Part shown: positions 384 to 28,009 of the stretch, piece after piece | How the letters are laid out: each line of letters opens with the position of its first letter | Position numbering within the stretch: position 1 is the stretch's first letter | IMG/VR virus record: IMGVR_UViG_3300021963_000029 | Coordinates: 1-64,000 of that record | From: a virus | Length of the DNA: 64,000 nt | Direction: 5' to 3' (one strand) | Notes under the pieces: model-generated | Told to the model about the DNA's origin: nothing | The model's database searches: none | What the model saw: only the letters and a program-made list of their open reading frames with translations | Made by a program: the position numbers and the translations under genes

Positions 384-1322
384 TTATTTATCTTTTGTAT
401 CCTTTAAAATCTTATCAGCAGCTTTAGCAAGTTTATCATACTTACCTTTCACTTTTCTGTTTGCTGCAGGAGCAGGTGATTTGGCAGCAGGAGTAGTTTG
501 AACTTTTCCCTTCTTTCCTTGAGGTCTTAGACCTTGAAGAACTGTTTCACCTTTACTATGAATAGCAGCAACTCGCTTTGCCTCCTTCTCTTTTGCTTTT
601 CTCTGAGCATCAGTCATAGCATTCTGAGACCTCTCTGAAGCAGGTCTCAGTCTAGACTTTTTTGGGTCAAATACCCCTTCAAATAGTGGAGTTCTTCCTT
701 CAACATACGCAAGCACTGATTCAGTTGCAGAAACCTTCATTCTTTGTGCTTGTTGAGCAACTTGGAAATCTGCTCTTTCCTTAGATACCTTTGCTCTAGC
801 AGCCTTTGCTTTTGCTGCTGCCATTGGATCTGGTTTTTGTCTTTCAGCATCACCCTTTGGTGGCATATCATAGGTGTCTGCCTCATCAAGTTGAACTGAA
901 TTATAGATTCCAACAATTTCATCTAAGGTAAACTTAGAAAGATCATAACCCTCTGCAATCAATTCATCCATCCATGCTTCAACTTCTTCAGAGACAGTTG
1001 GTTTGGTATTGATCTTATTGTGGATTCCCTTTCTTACATCAAGTTTGTCATTTTTATCATTCTTGCTGTGAAGTTCTCTTTCTTCCTTCTTTACTTTCTT
1101 TTTGAATGACCCACCTACTTCACCTTTCTCATACCCAACTCCATCTCCATCATCATCCCACCATCTCTTCTTACCATTTTCGGTTTCACCTTTCTTTTCT
1201 GCTTTTTCTTCAGCAGGACCTTCTTTATGCTTCTTCTCGCCTTTCTCTTCCTTCTCTTTCTTTTCTTCAGAAAGATGTGGTTCTCTGATCTCAGAGAAAG
1301 TGTCCGCCCAAATGTTAGTCAT
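384..1322 (-). CDS. Highly charged Lys/Glu-rich protein, possible internal head or core protein
   Basis: 312 aa, not assignable to a known enzyme. The first 50 residues are almost only K, E and G. Then comes an acidic DDDGDG loop (residues 56-61, after two tryptophans) reminiscent of calcium-binding DxDxDG loops. A helical segment around residues 112-142 (EVEAWMDELIAEGYDLSKF) resembles a module I associate with cyanophage hypothetical proteins. An Ala/Lys-rich, probably coiled-coil half and a basic tail follow. A TATAAATA late promoter lies 23 bases upstream, so it is probably made with the structural proteins. The composition resembles phage scaffold or internal proteins. This is inference, and a regulatory or DNA-compacting role is equally possible. 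Confidence 0.7.
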   Translation of the reverse strand: MTNIWADTFSEIREPHLSEEKKEKEEKGEKKHKEGPAEEKAEKKGETENGKKRWWDDDGDGVGYEKGEVGGSFKKKVKKEERELHSKNDKNDKLDVRKGIHNKINTKPTVSEEVEAWMDELIAEGYDLSKFTLDEIVGIYNSVQLDEADTYDMPPKGDAERQKPDPMAAAKAKAARAKVSKERADFQVAQQAQRMKVSATESVLAYVEGRTPLFEGVFDPKKSRLRPASERSQNAMTDAQRKAKEKEAKRVAAIHSKGETVLQGLRPQGKKGKVQTTPAAKSPAPAANRKVKGKYDKLAKAADKILKDTKDK

Positions 1323-1344: not shown

Positions 1345-1352
1345 TATTTATA
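1345..1352 (-). promoter_or_regulatory. T4-type late promoter TATAAATA
   Basis: Exact TATAAATA on the minus strand, ending 23 bases before the ATG at 1322. It overlaps the last codons of the upstream nucleotidylyltransferase-like gene. Confidence 0.6.
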
Positions 1353-2454
1353 CTAAAGTAACATCTTTGATCCAGGATTTAAACATGATGCCATCCTCAG
1401 TGACACAGATTAAATGATTTGCACCCGATCTAATAATCTCTCCCTTCAATCCAGTGTTACAACTTTGAACTGTGTCCCCTACTCTATAGAGGTTTCCAAA
1501 AACATAATTCTCCCTTAAGGATTTCAAATCCAAATCAGGAGCAATCTCCCAAGTTTCTTTTACTTCTAAAGATCCACCAAGGTCAGCAAACAATTGCTTC
1601 AATACTTTTGGTTGTACTCCAGCAGGCATGGTTTTCTTAAACCCTTCAAAGTCTCCTCCTGCTGCTGCTTTTCTAGCAGCAGAAGAAGTTTCATCTGGAT
1701 CTTTTGGACCAGAAGAAACTACATTGATGGAAGAGAAATTGTATAATTGACCATTCTGCTTCTTAGCAAGGTTATCAATTTCAGAACATCTTTCTGATCC
1801 ACAGATAATATTAATAGTTGTATAACCTTCCTGATTTAAGAATGCAAGAACATCAAAGATAGTTTTGAACTCATCACTATCAATGATTCTATCTGCATAC
1901 TCAGGGAACATCATCTTCATGTATTCAATTTTAGTATCAGCATCTAAAGGATTCTTCTTACCATCTTGAATTCTAGATGGGAACACATAGAAATTACCAC
2001 CAGAAGATGCTTGCTTAAGAGCATTTAAAAGATTCTTATGTCCCTTTGTAGGGGGATTAAACTTACCAAAAGCAACAGTTACTGCTTCTCCAGATGGTTT
2101 TGTTTGTTGCTGTTGTAAACCTCTTGCTGATGCTCCAGATGCTTGAGGTTTTTTAGTTCTGTCTGACCCTGCTGGTTTTGGTTTTGCACCAATTCTCTTT
2201 GGTGCTGGTTTTGCTTTTGCTAATTTCTTTGACTTAACATCAGCAGGATCTTGTGATGCAGAGTCTCCTTCTTCACCTTTCTTCTTTTTCTTTTGATCTA
2301 TGAATTGCAGTTTACCCTTAACTGTCTGTGCTTTTCTAGATCCTTCTTTATCGATCCAATATCCATGCCCATCACCAACATACCCAAGTTTCTTTGCTTG
2401 CTGTGCAGCTTGGGATGTTCTTGCTTCTGTTATAAACTCTAGGAATCTTTTCAT
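1348..2454 (-). CDS. Nucleotidylyltransferase-like protein with capsid-targeting-like N-terminus
   Basis: 368 aa in three parts. Residues 1-10, MKRFLEFITE, closely match the T4 capsid-targeting sequence (MKTYQEFIAE in the internal proteins), with an I-x-E gp21-type cleavage site. A conserved-looking segment (KKLGYVGDGHGYWIDKEG) and a long Lys/Pro/Ala-rich linker follow to about residue 120. Residues 125-285 form a cytidylyltransferase/NMNAT-like domain: GKFNPPTKGH (130-139) is the family's G-x-F-x-P-x-T/H-x-G-H nucleotide-binding motif, and SSAARKA (257-263) sits where these enzymes have the second phosphate-binding S-S-x-x-R motif. Family members join a nucleoside triphosphate to a phosphorylated substrate (NAD, CoA or lipid precursors). 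The substrate here is unknown. The gene overlaps its upstream neighbour by ATGA. Packaging into the head is inferred from the N-terminus only. Confidence 0.8.
   Translation of the reverse strand: MKRFLEFITEARTSQAAQQAKKLGYVGDGHGYWIDKEGSRKAQTVKGKLQFIDQKKKKKGEEGDSASQDPADVKSKKLAKAKPAPKRIGAKPKPAGSDRTKKPQASGASARGLQQQQTKPSGEAVTVAFGKFNPPTKGHKNLLNALKQASSGGNFYVFPSRIQDGKKNPLDADTKIEYMKMMFPEYADRIIDSDEFKTIFDVLAFLNQEGYTTINIICGSERCSEIDNLAKKQNGQLYNFSSINVVSSGPKDPDETSSAARKAAAGGDFEGFKKTMPAGVQPKVLKQLFADLGGSLEVKETWEIAPDLDLKSLRENYVFGNLYRVGDTVQSCNTGLKGEIIRSGANHLICVTEDGIMFKSWIKDVTLV
2425..2454 (-). other. Capsid-targeting-like sequence (MKRFLEFITE)
   Basis: The first ten codons encode a peptide with the T4 layout M-K-x-(F/Y)-x-x-F-I-x-E. 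In T4 such peptides direct internal proteins into the prohead and are cut off by gp21 after the glutamate. The role here is inferred from that similarity. Confidence 0.6.
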
Positions 2455-2678
2455 TTATTGATTTCTGAATATATCAAATCCTGATTGTCGAGAATATACT
2501 GCAATCCTATGCCTTTGGCATGTAAGTATTTATCCTTCTTATCTTTTGGATCTTTATATTGATCCATAAAAGAAGAGTAAAACCTAGAAAAATTTTCTAT
2601 AGTTTTCCTCTTCAATTGTTTCACTCTTACATGTTGTTTATATAGTGGAATTAGTTCTTTAAAAAAATCTTCCATCAA
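2451..2678 (-). CDS. Small hypothetical protein, 75 aa
   Basis: Starts MMEDFFKELIPLYKQHVRVK and is rich in basic and aromatic residues, probably all helical. I do not recognise a family. It is linked on both sides by ATGA overlaps: its start lies in the end of the DNA methyltransferase and its stop in the start of the nucleotidylyltransferase-like gene. It is therefore almost certainly translated from the same message. Confidence 0.65.
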   Translation of the reverse strand: MMEDFFKELIPLYKQHVRVKQLKRKTIENFSRFYSSFMDQYKDPKDKKDKYLHAKGIGLQYILDNQDLIYSEINK

Positions 2679-3476: not shown

Positions 3477-4754
3477 TCACTGGACCTTGATAAAGGGTCC
3501 AGACAGGTCTGCTTGACTAATGTTCATTTTTGATGATAGGAAGTAGGCATGAGTGATAAGTTCTGCTAATTTATGATCCTTCTTAGCCTCAATAAACATT
3601 TTCATGTATCTAAGGATTCTAAGTTTACTCCTCAGTTTAACAGCATAGTTTTTACCTGCAGGATTAGGAGATTGATCATCAAGTAAAAATGCTTTTTGAA
3701 TAAATTCCTTTGGGGTGCATGTCTTACCCATGTAAGAAATTCTACCAAAGTCTTTAGATATGGTACTATCATCAACTAAGTCTTGGAAATACTCTTGCCA
3801 ATATTCTAATTGGTTTAGATTAAATTTTCCATTAAGAGGAATGTTATGATTGATTTCCTCTCCAGTATATTTTTTAACTAACTCTGCCATCTTTGGTGCT
3901 GGGATTGCACCATTTCTTGCAGTAGCATTTACATATTTTCCTTTATTGTTAGCAACTCTATCTCTTGGTTCAGTTGCATGAGCAGCAGTACTAGAGACTT
4001 TACTTTCCCAAAAATATCTTTTAATATATTTTCCAGCTTTAAATTGTGCTTCAAATGTCAAAGAGTTTCCAGCAAAATCCATTTCACCCCCTCTCTTTGT
4101 GATTTCCATGTAGGTGAACATATCTCCAATTAAATCTCCTTCATGGACTTCAATACCATCTGGACCTACATCTATGTTAGTTTCATAGACATGAGACTCT
4201 GGTTCTGCTTTAGTTGGTTTCTTTAAAGAAATTCCAAGCAGAGATTTCTTCACTAACAGTTGACTTAGGTATGCATTTACTGTTCCAACAAATACTTCTG
4301 GAGATGTTGTTCCATCAGAAAACTCTTCCTTAAGAAGATTAATCATGTTTTTGACTTTCTGTTCTTCTGATGCTTTTATCATATAAACATCAGTTGTATT
4401 CCAACTATCTTTTTTACCAGTAAAAATTTGTTGTTGAGGTCTGTTAAAACTAGACCAAATGTAGTCATAAATGTCTGTAGTTTTTCCCATGGGAAGAGTC
4501 TTAGTAGACCCCCCATATCTGGCATACTTCCATGTAGTATCTTTAGTGCCTTCAGTGTGACCAAGGTATTTGATTAAAGCTTTTGCTTGCTTCAACAAAC
4601 CAAGATACCATTCAGAATCCATATTTGGAAACTCAGACTTTAGATCATTATAAAGATCTAAGTCTTGGTTTGGAGTTAAGTCTGCACCTTTCTCTATAGC
4701 ATGATAGAAGACAACAATAGATGCTGCTTCAAAGAGATCTGTTTCAGTTGCCAT
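3477..4754 (-). CDS. Unknown conserved-looking protein with KDSWN..D and GISLKK motifs
   Basis: 425 aa, no family I can name with confidence. Visible features are GKKDSWNTTDVYMIK at about residues 113-127 and LLGISLKKPT at about 174-183, separated by a predicted helical stretch, then a mixed alpha/beta C-terminal half rich in K and Y. A D followed later by (S/E)-x-K resembles the catalytic layout of PD-(D/E)xK nucleases, so a nuclease is possible, but this is inference. It lies between mazG and a DNA methyltransferase on the same strand. A 7-bp inverted repeat (CTGGACC/GGTCCAG, 3480-3502) covers the end of the gene. Confidence 0.75.
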   Translation of the reverse strand: MATETDLFEAASIVVFYHAIEKGADLTPNQDLDLYNDLKSEFPNMDSEWYLGLLKQAKALIKYLGHTEGTKDTTWKYARYGGSTKTLPMGKTTDIYDYIWSSFNRPQQQIFTGKKDSWNTTDVYMIKASEEQKVKNMINLLKEEFSDGTTSPEVFVGTVNAYLSQLLVKKSLLGISLKKPTKAEPESHVYETNIDVGPDGIEVHEGDLIGDMFTYMEITKRGGEMDFAGNSLTFEAQFKAGKYIKRYFWESKVSSTAAHATEPRDRVANNKGKYVNATARNGAIPAPKMAELVKKYTGEEINHNIPLNGKFNLNQLEYWQEYFQDLVDDSTISKDFGRISYMGKTCTPKEFIQKAFLLDDQSPNPAGKNYAVKLRSKLRILRYMKMFIEAKKDHKLAELITHAYFLSSKMNISQADLSGPFIKVQ

Positions 4755-10853: not shown

Positions 10854-11124
10854 TTACATGCTCCAAATAAGATTCTTTTACTTCATCCAGGGGTTCTACA
10901 ATAGAAACTACCCAATCACATGGAATTGGAATTTCTTTCTGCTTGGACAGAGGAACATAAGGATAGTAAGTTACACTGCTACCTTCAACACCATCACCTT
11001 CATTTACTCTGGTGACAAATGGGTTAGCAAGGAGATAACCAATTACTTTATCTCCTGACATCATTTCTTTTACATCAGCAATGACATCCTCATAGGATTT
11101 CAGAACCAAAAGTTTAACAGACAT
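10801..11124 (-). CDS. Small Sm-like paralogue with acidic tail
   Basis: 107 aa. It begins MSVKLLVLKSYEDVIADVKE, continues through YYPYVPLSKQKEIPI and WVVSIVEPLDEVKESYLEH, and ends in a polar acidic tail (DKQSDSDNAD). The strand pattern and the VEP..E...Y ending match the paralogues at 10605, 15659 and 21754. It overlaps the end of the 480-aa gene by 11 bases. Function is unknown. Location in the polymerase unit suggests a role in DNA or RNA metabolism. Confidence 0.75.
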   Translation of the reverse strand: MSVKLLVLKSYEDVIADVKEMMSGDKVIGYLLANPFVTRVNEGDGVEGSSVTYYPYVPLSKQKEIPIPCDWVVSIVEPLDEVKESYLEHVNGQTAGTDKQSDSDNAD

Positions 11125-12556
11125 AATTTTCCAATGTTAATGTTTTATCTTGTAGTTTTAATATGTGATCAGCAAGTTTGTCAATATATCCTTTGTTTCT
11201 AAGTTCTTTAAAAACTAGATTCTCAAAGGCAAACTCACCACCTTTATCTAGGGCAGAATTTCTCATGTCCCTAAGCTTCTTCAGGAGACTTTCCAATGCT
11301 TTTTCATTGTTAGCATAGTTAATAGTCCTGTCAATCTTATTCATCATATCACGAACCTTGGTGTTTAGCAACTCCTCATCTAGGTCTCCAGTAAACTGTT
11401 CTGGTTTAATCAACCATTTGTTTGACTTGAGAGAGAATACACCTTGACTCTTCCTTCTTTTCTTTCCAGGTTCTTCAACATAAGGTTCCACATCATGACC
11501 ATAAACTTTTACCTCATGGGTTAAAGTCCATAGTTGTTTCTTTGCTTGATAATAATCAGAAAGAACATCTGGACAAGATCCATTATTAACAACTAAATGC
11601 AAATCTAGATCAGAATACTTGGTGTAATTATACCCTGCATTTCCACCCAAAAGTAAAATGTCAACAATCTGAGATTTCTTAACATCTACAAAGTCTGCCC
11701 AAGCCTTTGCAACTTTTAATAGATGTGCTCTAACCTCTGGTTTTAATTTTTCTCCATTCCAAAAAGTAGGATTTAATTGATCATGAACTCTAAATGATAT
11801 AGATTCTTCAAGAAAAGTTTTATAACTTTTCATTTTGATACTTTCATCTGTTATTCCTCTTGCCTTTGCAGCAACCGACATTCTTGCTCTCAGTTCTCTT
11901 TGTTTTTGCATTTTTGGAGTCTCTATTCCTTTTTCTCTGGCAAGTCTTTCAGATGCACTTCCTTGTCTCTCAATTTTCCTCTGAATCTCCACTCTATGAA
12001 CATCAGTACCATAATCTTGAAGACTGCCACCTTTACCAACTGGTTTTTGAGAAGAATGATATCCACCTGATCCTCTGTGAGGGACACCCTTTCCACCTTT
12101 GGGTCCATCAGTTTGTGCTAAGTTTCTTGGATCACTACCATGAAATTTACCAAACTTAGCATCTTTTTCTCTTTTTTCTCTTCTTTGTTCTGGAGATAAT
12201 CCCCAAAACTCTTTAGAAGATTGTGAGATTGGAGTTAAGTGGTGATGTTCTTTGCCTCTCCCAACAATAGTATCTCTTTTTTGATCTCCTCTTTTTTTTA
12301 GATTTGGATCTAAATCAGAGTCAACATCTTTAAGTCTAGATGCTCTGTTTATTTGTTGATTAGATCTGGAATCTGCCCTCTTAAGTCCATATCTTTGAAC
12401 CCCATTACTATCCCTACCAATAGTTCCAATTATATAATCACCTGGATTGTCTTTAGCATCAAGACTTTTCTTTACTCTATCCCATCTTGCCTTTTCTTCA
12501 GGACTACCATTCTCAGGGCGATTTACCTCCACAACAAATTCTCTAAAACTTTTCAT
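11114..12556 (-). CDS. Two-part protein: HNH-like region plus nucleotidyltransferase, each with a capsid-targeting-like start
   Basis: 480 aa. Residues 1-10, MKSFREFVVE, resemble the T4 capsid-targeting sequence. Residues 100-170 hold HHHLTPI (104-110), DPRNL (142-146) and PHRGSGGYH (159-167), an arrangement like HNH/EndoVII-fold nucleases of the x-H-H toxin type. A basic helical linker follows. Residues 242-251, MKSYKTFLEE, are a second capsid-targeting-like peptide. A nucleotidyltransferase domain comes next: LGGNAGYN (303-310) and SDLDLH (315-320) form the G-G/S...D-x-D active site of minimal nucleotidyltransferases. The gene sits among early replication genes but has a TATAAATA late promoter 18 bases upstream, with AGG before the ATG. 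It looks like two internal-head proteins fused end to end. Catalysis and packaging are inferred, not shown. Confidence 0.8.
   Translation of the reverse strand: MKSFREFVVEVNRPENGSPEEKARWDRVKKSLDAKDNPGDYIIGTIGRDSNGVQRYGLKRADSRSNQQINRASRLKDVDSDLDPNLKKRGDQKRDTIVGRGKEHHHLTPISQSSKEFWGLSPEQRREKREKDAKFGKFHGSDPRNLAQTDGPKGGKGVPHRGSGGYHSSQKPVGKGGSLQDYGTDVHRVEIQRKIERQGSASERLAREKGIETPKMQKQRELRARMSVAAKARGITDESIKMKSYKTFLEESISFRVHDQLNPTFWNGEKLKPEVRAHLLKVAKAWADFVDVKKSQIVDILLLGGNAGYNYTKYSDLDLHLVVNNGSCPDVLSDYYQAKKQLWTLTHEVKVYGHDVEPYVEEPGKKRRKSQGVFSLKSNKWLIKPEQFTGDLDEELLNTKVRDMMNKIDRTINYANNEKALESLLKKLRDMRNSALDKGGEFAFENLVFKELRNKGYIDKLADHILKLQDKTLTLENYVC
11158..11184 (-). promoter_or_regulatory. Candidate sigma70-type promoter for the gp43 unit
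   Basis: On the minus strand TTGACA (11184-11179) is followed after 15 bases by TATTAA (11163-11158), 34 bases before the 107-aa gene. The -35 is perfect, the -10 matches 4 of 6, and the spacing is short. It lies inside the 480-aa gene. It could give early expression of gp43, uvsX and gp41 independent of the late promoter at 12574. Confidence 0.3.
11804..11833 (-). other. Internal capsid-targeting-like sequence (MKSYKTFLEE)
   Basis: Codons 242-251 of the 480-aa gene encode a second M-K-S-(Y/F)-x-x-F-L-x-E peptide in the middle of the protein, directly before the nucleotidyltransferase domain. The ATG at 11833 has GATGAAAG about 9 bases upstream, a weak possible ribosome-binding site, so an internal start is conceivable. 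Confidence 0.55.
12527..12556 (-). other. Capsid-targeting-like sequence (MKSFREFVVE)
   Basis: The first ten codons of the 480-aa gene match the T4 internal-protein pattern M-K-x-(Y/F)-x-E-F-x-x-E, with gp21-type cleavage expected after the final E. Confidence 0.6.
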
Positions 12557-12573: not shown

Positions 12574-12581
12574 TATTTATA
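12574..12581 (-). promoter_or_regulatory. T4-type late promoter TATAAATA
   Basis: Exact TATAAATA on the minus strand, 18 bases before the ATG at 12556. It merges with the U-tract of the hsp20 terminator (CCCCCTTTTTATAAATA), the same arrangement as at 123-160. Confidence 0.65.
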
Positions 12582-26150: not shown

Positions 26151-27308
26151 TCACTTGAATTTAGAAACTGCTCTCAGATAAGCATTCATTTGAGGTGAAT
26201 AATCCTCAACATTTTCTTGAATGAGCACTTCTTCTCTTGTGGAACCTGTTGCTCTTGGGAAATATGATTCCTTCAGAGTTTCAAGTTTTTCACGATAGTC
26301 TGTCTCACCTTCAAACTCAACACCTTCAGCAAGACCTGCAAGTTTTTCCTTCTGAGTTAAAGCTAACCCTTCAGTTACTTCATTAAAGATAGTATCACTT
26401 ACAGCCTCACTTAGTCTTTGATTTAGTAGAACATTTCTTTCGATTTGTTCGTTGAGTTTTGACTCCATTTCATCTAGTCTTTCGACCATGCCCTCTAATA
26501 CATCATATCTATCTTCAGGGATTTCTACATAATGTTCTTCAAAAAGTCCTTTTAGACCAGACATAAAGGACTCTGAGAGTTCTGATTTAATGCCATTTTC
26601 AATTTGAAGAGCATTCTCTTCAATCCATTCTTCAGCAACATACTCAAGATAGGCATCTACTCTTTGAGTAAGTTCTTCTCTGATTGTGGTAACTTCTTCT
26701 ACAAGATCATTCTTGTACTGCTCTTGCATTACTTCCATTGCAGAGATAAGTTTTGCCTTAACTGCTGCTTCAAAGATAGTTGCTGCTTTTGCAGTAAATG
26801 CTTCTGATAACTCTTCACCCTCAGAAAGGGCATTGATGTCATCAGTGTAATCTACTTCTGAGTTGACAATTTGATTCAGTTTGTCCTGAAGTGAAATGGT
26901 TTCTTCTTCAACCACTTCCTCTTCAGTTTCTACTGTTTCTACATCAGTCTCTTCTTCCTCAACCTCTTCTGACTCAAGAACAAGATCTTCCTCTTCTGCT
27001 TCAGTTTCTTCATATGACATGGCAGCTTTGTTAGCATGTTGCATAGGATCAGGACCCTTTGCACCTCTATGCTGAACATCTCTGACAGCCTTTAATCTTG
27101 CAGCAGGAGTCTTATACTTGTTTGACTCGTCATCAGGCTTTGAATTTTGGGGGGTTGGACCTCCTAGATCTTCCACTCCATTGACAAGACCTTCACCAGG
27201 AATGGTTGCTTTATGCATACCTTCCCCAGGTTTGGCACCCTTGTTTACTGCAGTGACAGATTTTTTAGTAGATACTTCCATTTCTTGTAAATCGTTACCG
27301 ACACTCAT
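26151..27308 (-). CDS. 22: gp22 prohead scaffold (core) protein
   Basis: 385 aa, longer than T4 gp22 (269). A long acidic stretch (EETEAEEEDLVLESEEVEEE, about residues 100-135) is followed by predicted coiled coils, such as MVERLDEMESKLNEQIERNV, and several (L/I)-x-E sites for gp21. The final NAYLRAVSKFK is typical of gp22. The scaffold fills the prohead and is degraded by gp21. It lies between gp21 and gp23 in the normal order and has a TATAAATA promoter 41 bases upstream. Confidence 0.95.
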   Translation of the reverse strand: MSVGNDLQEMEVSTKKSVTAVNKGAKPGEGMHKATIPGEGLVNGVEDLGGPTPQNSKPDDESNKYKTPAARLKAVRDVQHRGAKGPDPMQHANKAAMSYEETEAEEEDLVLESEEVEEEETDVETVETEEEVVEEETISLQDKLNQIVNSEVDYTDDINALSEGEELSEAFTAKAATIFEAAVKAKLISAMEVMQEQYKNDLVEEVTTIREELTQRVDAYLEYVAEEWIEENALQIENGIKSELSESFMSGLKGLFEEHYVEIPEDRYDVLEGMVERLDEMESKLNEQIERNVLLNQRLSEAVSDTIFNEVTEGLALTQKEKLAGLAEGVEFEGETDYREKLETLKESYFPRATGSTREEVLIQENVEDYSPQMNAYLRAVSKFK

Positions 27309-27348
27309 TTGTATACTCCGAATAAAAATCTTTGATTTATTCTATATT

Positions 27349-27356
27349 TATTTATA
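27349..27356 (-). promoter_or_regulatory. T4-type late promoter TATAAATA before gp22
   Basis: Exact TATAAATA on the minus strand in the 50-base gap between gp21 and gp22. The site lies in the palindrome ATTTATAAAT. Confidence 0.65.
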
Positions 27357-27358
27357 AA

Positions 27359-28009
27359 TTACAGATTTGAAAGATAATCTGCAAATAATTTGAGCTTGTT
27401 CTGCTCATTTAAACTTCTAGTTTTAGAAAGTCTTTCAATTTTATGTCTGGTATTGGATGCATTCATTTCTTTGAGAATGCCCCCATCCCAAACCCATTCT
27501 TTTCCTTCCATAATGCCTTCAACAAAAGCATCAGGTGCGGAAGGATCTGCTACAATATCTGCAGCAGTGGCAAGCATAAAGTCGTCTCCAATATACTTGA
27601 TACCATTTTTCTCAATCAAAGAACCAATTCCTCTGGAAGAAACCCCAAGTTTTACTCCTTCTCCAAGGAGTGACTTGGCAATGTTGCCCATTGGAGTATC
27701 AAGAATTTTTGCTTTACCTACAAAGTTATTTCCTTCTGATCTCAAAGAAGTAATCATATGTGAAACTCTATCCAGATTTACAGTAGGACCATCTGGGTGA
27801 CCAAGTTCTCCTAAAGCTCTTCCCTGTTTGATGAAGTTTTCAGTGTACTTGTTAACTTCTCTGGAAAGAACTTCCATAGGATAGCATCTGCCATTTCTGT
27901 TAGTAACTTCTGCTTGCAGAAATGGACCCTGAATATACAGGGTTTGTTTTCCATTTTTTTCTTCAGTAATAATTTCTACTGATTCGATTTCTTCTGTGAT
28001 GAGTTTCAT
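27359..28009 (-). CDS. 21: gp21 prohead core protease
   Basis: 216 aa (T4 212). A serine protease of the herpesvirus-assemblin-like fold: catalytic His in GELGHPDGPTV (H71) and catalytic Ser in LGVSSRGIG (S124 or S125), with EVTNRNGRCYPMEV near the N-terminus. It cleaves gp22, gp23, other head proteins and capsid-targeting peptides after (I/L)-x-E during maturation, so it would also process the three targeting-like peptides found in this window. Confidence 0.97.
   Translation of the reverse strand: MKLITEEIESVEIITEEKNGKQTLYIQGPFLQAEVTNRNGRCYPMEVLSREVNKYTENFIKQGRALGELGHPDGPTVNLDRVSHMITSLRSEGNNFVGKAKILDTPMGNIAKSLLGEGVKLGVSSRGIGSLIEKNGIKYIGDDFMLATAADIVADPSAPDAFVEGIMEGKEWVWDGGILKEMNASNTRHKIERLSKTRSLNEQNKLKLFADYLSNL

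Follow-up and report, generated by a model that had tools for sequence, protein, structure and literature searches.

The capsid-targeting sequence (CTS) of bacteriophage T4 has already been used for packaging foreign proteins. Work with suppressor mutants of the T4 internal protein IPIII traced the control of targeting to residues 4 and 7 of this N-terminal signal and that of processing to residues 8 and 10 (PMC9026906), and the prohead protease gp21 cleaves after L/I-x-E. In cyanophages, mass spectrometry has placed members of one protein family in virions of S-SM1 (T4-GC190 homologue; PMC3037559), S-SCSM1 (ORF91; PMC9602691), S-SZBM1 (S-SZBM1_140; PMC9146016) and S-CREM2 (ORF154, gp154; PMC10665884), and those proteome papers also cite S-CBWM1 for virion presence. 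The authors of two studies point out that carry-over is possible in proteomics of CsCl-purified particles; proteomics alone could not separate packaged cyanophage enzymes from carry-over contaminants.

A member of this family is encoded in the window analysed here, a 64,000-nucleotide stretch that is part of a 180,814-base virus record. An earlier note, made from the DNA letters alone, had described the open reading frame at 1348–2454 as an apparently head-targeted, NMNAT-like nucleotidylyltransferase. The gene proved to be real and lies on the minus strand, running from an ATG at 2454 to 1348 and encoding 368 aa. Its product matches PHROG_395, labelled 'cytidyltransferase', with an E value of 5e-72 and has matches in 545 phage records, 318 of which span at least 80% of its length. 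The main features of its surroundings are as follows.

384..1322, minus strand: 312-aa gene directly downstream of the enzyme gene, with its own late promoter motif at 1345–1351
1348..2454, minus strand: gene of the 368-aa adenylyltransferase-fold protein with predicted capsid targeting (PHROG_395 'cytidyltransferase'; T4-GC190 family)
2527..2533, minus strand: predicted late promoter motif gATAAATACT, 72 nt 5′ of the enzyme ATG and inside an upstream 75-aa ORF
3477..4754, minus strand: 425-aa gene, PHROG_1462, the family that also holds virion protein SSCSM1_90
26151..27308, minus strand: T4-type head scaffold, gp22 homologue (PHROG_237), the core to which a CTS would bind
27359..28009, minus strand: T4-type prohead protease, gp21 homologue (PHROG_207)

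The 312-aa gene occupies the place of virion protein SSCSM1_92 in S-SCSM1. T4-type portal, prohead protease, scaffold and capsid genes all fall within the window by PHROG matches, the portal is nearest to those of Synechococcus phages Bellamy, S-SM2 and S-SCSM1 (about 69% identity), and two Photo_RC genes, presumably psbA and psbD, are present in the full record. Judged from this gene content, the source is a T4-like cyanophage, a virus of marine cyanobacteria.

N-terminal decamer and late promoter

An AlphaFold2 model of the 368-aa protein, built with 58 relatives, gave the following layout, in which residues 4–10 form a short helix.

2425..2454, minus strand: residues 1–10, MKRFLEFITE, T4-type CTS with the prohead-protease motif L/I-x-E (ITE) at 8–10
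2296..2421, minus strand: residues 12–53, small folded module with a DGHG.W motif, confident at 15–52
2095..2295, minus strand: residues 54–120, variable, disordered linker rich in K/E/P/Q
1561..2094, minus strand: residues 121–298, HIGH-superfamily nucleotidylyltransferase domain, very confident in the model
2038..2067, minus strand: residues 130–139, GKFNPPTKGH, the (T/H)xGH nucleotide-binding motif
1672..1686, minus strand: residues 257–261, SSAAR, the counterpart of ISSTxxR
1351..1497, minus strand: residues 320–368, all-beta C-terminal domain that looks SH3/KOW-like and is conserved in the family

The protein begins MKRFLEFITEAR, and T4 IPII and IPIII, taken from a T4 record, begin MKTYQEFIAEAR and MKTYQEFIAEAS, respectively. 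Eight of the first 12 residues are identical to IPII, and F4, F7, I8 and E10 are all present, which bears out the earlier reading of MKRFLEFITE as a close match to the CTS. The T4 rule used for a CTS-like start (F/Y4, F7, L/I8, E10) is expected by chance from residue composition at about 2e-5 per start codon. Among 80 full-length relatives, 67 follow the strict rule and 78 a slightly looser one; loss of the peptide in close relatives, which the earlier note had named as evidence that would refute its reading, is thus not the pattern found, and the outcome favours the note. M1, F4, F7, E10 and A11 are invariant in five divergent members. Residues 12–110 are missing from two of these; since the decamer is intact there, the peptide is conserved independently of its neighbouring residues.

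Across 58 relatives the most conserved sites after Met1 are F7, F4 and E10, followed by A11, K2 and I/L8 (L or I at position 8 in 54 of the 58), and positions 3, 5, 6 and 9 are the least conserved of the decamer. This pattern coincides with the determinants 4, 7, 8 and 10 found by IPIII mutagenesis. The cleavage motif, ITE followed by A, is present in the 368-aa protein and conserved in the family. In the linker, the 58 sequences contain one L/I-x-E motif against 7.6 expected from shuffles; as the sequences are related to one another, this scarcity is no more than a hint that the linker meets the prohead protease.

In the S-CAM1/MED4-213 clade the enzyme is a stand-alone ORF that has no decamer and is split from the C-terminal domain, which is a separate ORF there; the jumbo-phage relatives are bare domains, also decamer-free, and those of HTVC008M and Melnitz-3 have weaker N-termini. 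The decamer-free versions of the S-CAM1/MED4-213 clade and the jumbo phages imply that the enzyme is not always in need of packaging. In many cyanophage records the C-terminal domain is labelled ribonucleotide reductase alpha subunit or NrdB (for example L107 3534–3809), apparently a misannotation.

The cyanophage late promoter has the consensus NATAAATA (PMC2984593). ATAAATA occurs 17 times in the window (27345–27355 among the sites), always on the minus strand, which is transcribed and carries the long genes; over the whole record the counts by strand are 41 versus 4. Besides the site upstream of the enzyme gene, sites occur 22 nt before the 312-aa gene and before the scaffold and sheath genes. 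ATAAATA was found no more than 100 nt upstream in 52 of 78 relatives versus 4.2% of other windows, a large effect even if relatedness makes its nominal p-value meaningless; the commonest distance among relatives is 27 nt before the ATG, and the 100 nt upstream of S-SM1_190 and of S-SZBM1_140 contain no ATAAATA. The enzyme gene is assigned a T4-type late promoter on this motif, and late expression is predicted.

A CTS-like start and a late promoter occur together at only two genes in the 180,814 bases, namely the enzyme gene and that of a 480-aa protein.

11114..12556, minus strand: gene of the 480-aa protein, N-terminus MKSFREFVVE
11804..11833, minus strand: second CTS-like decamer, MKSYKTFLEE, at the start of the nucleotidyltransferase half of the 480-aa protein
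12574..12580, minus strand: late promoter motif of the 480-aa gene, 17 nt upstream

The C-terminal half of the 480-aa protein (NTP_transf_2) is 45% identical to S-CREM2 gp156, a virion-detected protein. With its N-terminal decamer, its late promoter and this homologue, the 480-aa protein also looks packaged, in agreement with the proposal of a second packaged nucleotidyl-transfer fold. Its two decamers would fit a protein onto which a second CTS protein had, as it were, been fused.

Other CTS-like proteins occur near the family. In relatives, small proteins with a near-perfect T4 CTS (such as MKTFSEFIAEAEN) and a likeness to T4 internal proteins are encoded no further than about 3 kb from the adenylyltransferase (L028:1483, L038:1551, L058:1929, L072:6479, L099:6984). 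The structural operons of S-SCSM1 and S-SZBM1 encode small CTS proteins with the starts MKTFKQFMSES, MKSFKSFLSES and MKTFKQYITEA (L016 44215–44535; L009 42312–42629 and 42629–43126). These operon proteins are absent from the reported virion proteomes and are perhaps prohead-core proteins lost at maturation. In many cyanophages the gene next upstream of the adenylyltransferase encodes a DUF6267 protein with a ligase-like KWDGAP motif (L011 4803–5777, L009 1478–2671, L101 714–1961), and the Melnitz-3 copy has the CTS-like start LINFSKYITED. DUF6267 was rejected as an obligate partner, as a search run without a positive control gave no match in this genome. The fusion of DUF6267 to the enzyme in metaG-MbCM1, which keeps an internal MKKFSAFLSEA, was likewise set aside as a likely lost stop or assembly error.

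Homologues in virions

The decamer stands at the N-terminus of all four virion-detected homologues, those of S-SM1, S-SCSM1, S-SZBM1 and S-CREM2. The family was not detected in S-PM2 virions by proteomics (PMC3037559) and is not mentioned in the shallow S-CREM1 virion set of 14 proteins. In S-CREM2 the CTS pattern occurs at six of 4,203 candidate start codons, all six of which are annotated gene starts. Five of the six products were detected in virions (SAM lyase gp6, gp13, kinase gp14, gp136 and adenylyltransferase gp154), and none of 24 canonical structural proteins carries the pattern. The association between pattern and virion detection has a hypergeometric p of about 0.003 for all CDS and 2e-4 for non-structural CDS, values that are indicative only because the pattern was finalised after some S-CREM2 N-termini were known. 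A kinase reported in S-CRM01 virions begins MISFDQFLSE. The SAM lyase gp6 (L008 3837–5081; Pfam S-AdoMet_lyase, 70 bits), which has both the CTS decamer and a late promoter and is virion-detected, is a candidate injected anti-restriction enzyme.

Virion presence of the family rests on these published homologue data; the conservation of the signal, the late promoter, the catalytic motifs and the fold come from the present analysis. A decamer conserved at the key T4 positions, a late promoter and homologues in the virions of at least four cyanophages strongly support the head targeting proposed in the earlier note. Packaging of the 368-aa protein in the head is likewise strongly supported, and the protein very probably enters the host together with the DNA. 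An ordinary cytosolic metabolic enzyme, such as a glycerol-3-phosphate or other cytidylyltransferase, could instead be made from the infecting genome and reach particle preparations as contamination. 'Cytidylyltransferase' does appear in database names and published AMG lists, and the versions in jumbo phages and the S-CAM1 clade are decamer-free. We consider this quite improbable in view of the conserved T4-type decamer, the late promoter and the repeated detection in virions, and no cytidylyltransferase appears among the 50 PDB matches listed in the structural comparison described below.

We favor, as the likely reading, a T4-style internal head protein that has an adenylyltransferase-fold enzyme as its cargo. 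A mechanism is proposed in which the protein would be synthesized late in infection from the ATAAATA promoter and docked on the prohead scaffold by its decamer through F4 and F7. The prohead protease would cleave after E10 (I-T-E, then A11) and free the remainder within the head, from which the enzyme would be injected along with the DNA. In the new host, it would most likely adenylylate a small phosphorylated acceptor, with ATP as the AMP donor, ahead of phage gene expression. Cleavage, ejection, catalysis and substrate are the steps that we infer.

The residue 12–53 module is found on other virion proteins. Its profile matches the S-CREM2 kinase gp14 (5e-17) and gp12, annotated as 'Cas9' (5e-13), both of which are virion-detected and carry a CTS-like decamer; close copies occur in S-H34, S-CRM01 and others. 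At least three different payloads thus bear the decamer together with the module. For gp12 (L008 7704–10313), called 'Cas9' in the virion proteome paper, no Pfam match above cut-off was obtained, and an HNH-like stretch can be recognized by eye in gp12 and in a tagged 687-aa protein of S-B05 (L110 3483–5546). The 'Cas9' label looks doubtful, and a packaged HNH-like nuclease is more likely. As a speculative extension, decamer and module might form a two-part shipping label on interchangeable enzymes (adenylyltransferase, APH/Ser-Thr-like kinase, HNH-like nuclease), by which the head would deliver a multi-enzyme take-over kit. The adenylyltransferase would be its nearly universal member, acting on nucleotide/NAD pools before phage transcription.

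Fold, catalytic motifs and acceptor

Both parts of the catalytic set reported earlier, GKFNPPTKGH and SSAAR, are present and fall in columns conserved across the family. (T/H)xGH, R222, S258 and R261 show little or no variation in the family alignment, which suggests that the enzyme is probably active. These residues also bear on the possibility that the protein has a structural or scaffold-associated role in the head, with a fold that survives as a relic or as a non-catalytic nucleotide or DNA binder. Such a role would suit the extra small domains at both ends and the basic linker, the low virion copy in S-SZBM1 (emPAI 0.26; PMC9146016) and the position of the S-SCSM1 gene in a run of virion-protein genes (PMC9602691). 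Near invariance of (T/H)xGH, R222 and S-x-S-x-x-R is unexpected in a relic, and we regard this alternative as unlikely.

Modelled alone, domain 121–298 reached a pLDDT of 94. Its top Foldseek matches in the PDB are NadD, PPAT and NadM (E about 1e-5, TM about 0.6, 10–21% identity), and the 50 PDB matches listed comprise adenylyltransferases only. The domain thus has a HIGH-superfamily adenylyltransferase fold with (T/H)xGH and ISSTxxR-type motifs, and a cytidylyltransferase reading was rejected as having no structural support. The score for Pfam CTP_transf_like, which covers both adenylyl- and cytidylyltransferases, is below cut-off. A sequence-only PDB search gave no match for the single protein and weak NMNAT matches with the family profile. 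None of the curated NMNAT models TIGR00482, PRK08887 and TIGR01526 was passed; the best score was 21.3 bits, for a cut-off of 112.

Among 21,191 viral proteomes surveyed, phages with NadM always also had NadV (PMC9503650). A search of the 180.8-kb record, which may be a fragment, gave no PF04095 match for NadV (NAPRTase), whereas the positive controls did give matches, and a NadV/NadM salvage pathway in the same phage was rejected on this result. PADLOC returned no matches. The description as NMNAT-like consequently stands for the fold; it does not extend to function, as no NMNAT cut-off is reached, NadV was not found in the record, and NadD, PPAT and NadM structures fit equally well.

NMN or NaMN may tentatively be named as the single most likely acceptor. 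A true NMN/NaMN adenylyltransferase, injected to restore NAD+ once host NADases are triggered, would be a counter-defence; phages are known to counter NAD-depleting defences by NAD+ salvage, the NAD idea has already been put forward for S-SCSM1 (PMC9602691), and NadD/NMNAT provide the fold and the best weak family matches. This remains a doubtful assignment, given that TIGR00482 gives 21 bits against its cut-off of 112, that the NadV found in every surveyed NadM phage has no counterpart in this record, and that PPAT structures fit as well. For the packaged adenylyltransferase-fold protein that we favor, a putative effect on the nucleotide pools of the host as infection begins can reasonably be inferred.

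Comparison with known systems

If the favored reading is true, one of the most common genes of T4-like cyanophages, usually filed as auxiliary metabolic, encodes an injected protein, and the enzyme works ahead of phage gene expression instead of being expressed during infection, as has been assumed. The T4-type decamer and late promoter would then provide a sequence rule by which true head cargo can be told from contaminants and predicted from the genome alone.

The closest parallel for the signal is T4 IPII/IPIII (Black laboratory), with which the cyanophage protein shares the decamer pattern, the determinants 4, 7, 8 and 10 and the late promoter, and in both cases a T4-type scaffold and prohead protease are encoded by the same genome. 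The T4 cargo is a small basic protein, whereas the cyanophage cargo is a large multidomain enzyme with a second folded module after the decamer, and its cleavage and ejection are putative. T4 Alt, the packaged and injected ADP-ribosyltransferase with which the earlier note drew its comparison, is likewise a nucleotide-using enzyme inside the head. Its fold is unrelated and its propeptide is six residues ending in ITE instead of a decamer, so the parallel in the signal belongs to IPII/IPIII. NadD, NadM and PPAT (CoaD) share the fold and the positions of the (T/H)xGH and S-x-S/T-x-x-R motifs; they differ in that identity is 10–21% by Foldseek, the cyanophage protein scores far under their family cut-offs, and it has no fused Nudix or kinase domain.

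The virion proteins named 'cytidyl(yl)transferase' or NMNAT (T4-GC190, S-SCSM1 ORF91, S-SZBM1_140 and S-CREM2 ORF154) belong to the same family, at 35–47% identity, and carry the same decamer. In the accessible text of the virion-proteome literature on these homologues, the connection to the CTS is not made; a full-text search found 'cyanophage' and 'capsid targeting sequence' together in one paper, a T4 review, whose passages available to us do not draw the link. Virion presence of the family and the NAD hypothesis are already published; the new elements are the connection with the T4 signal at the level of the determinant residues, the late promoter and the shared residue 12–53 module.
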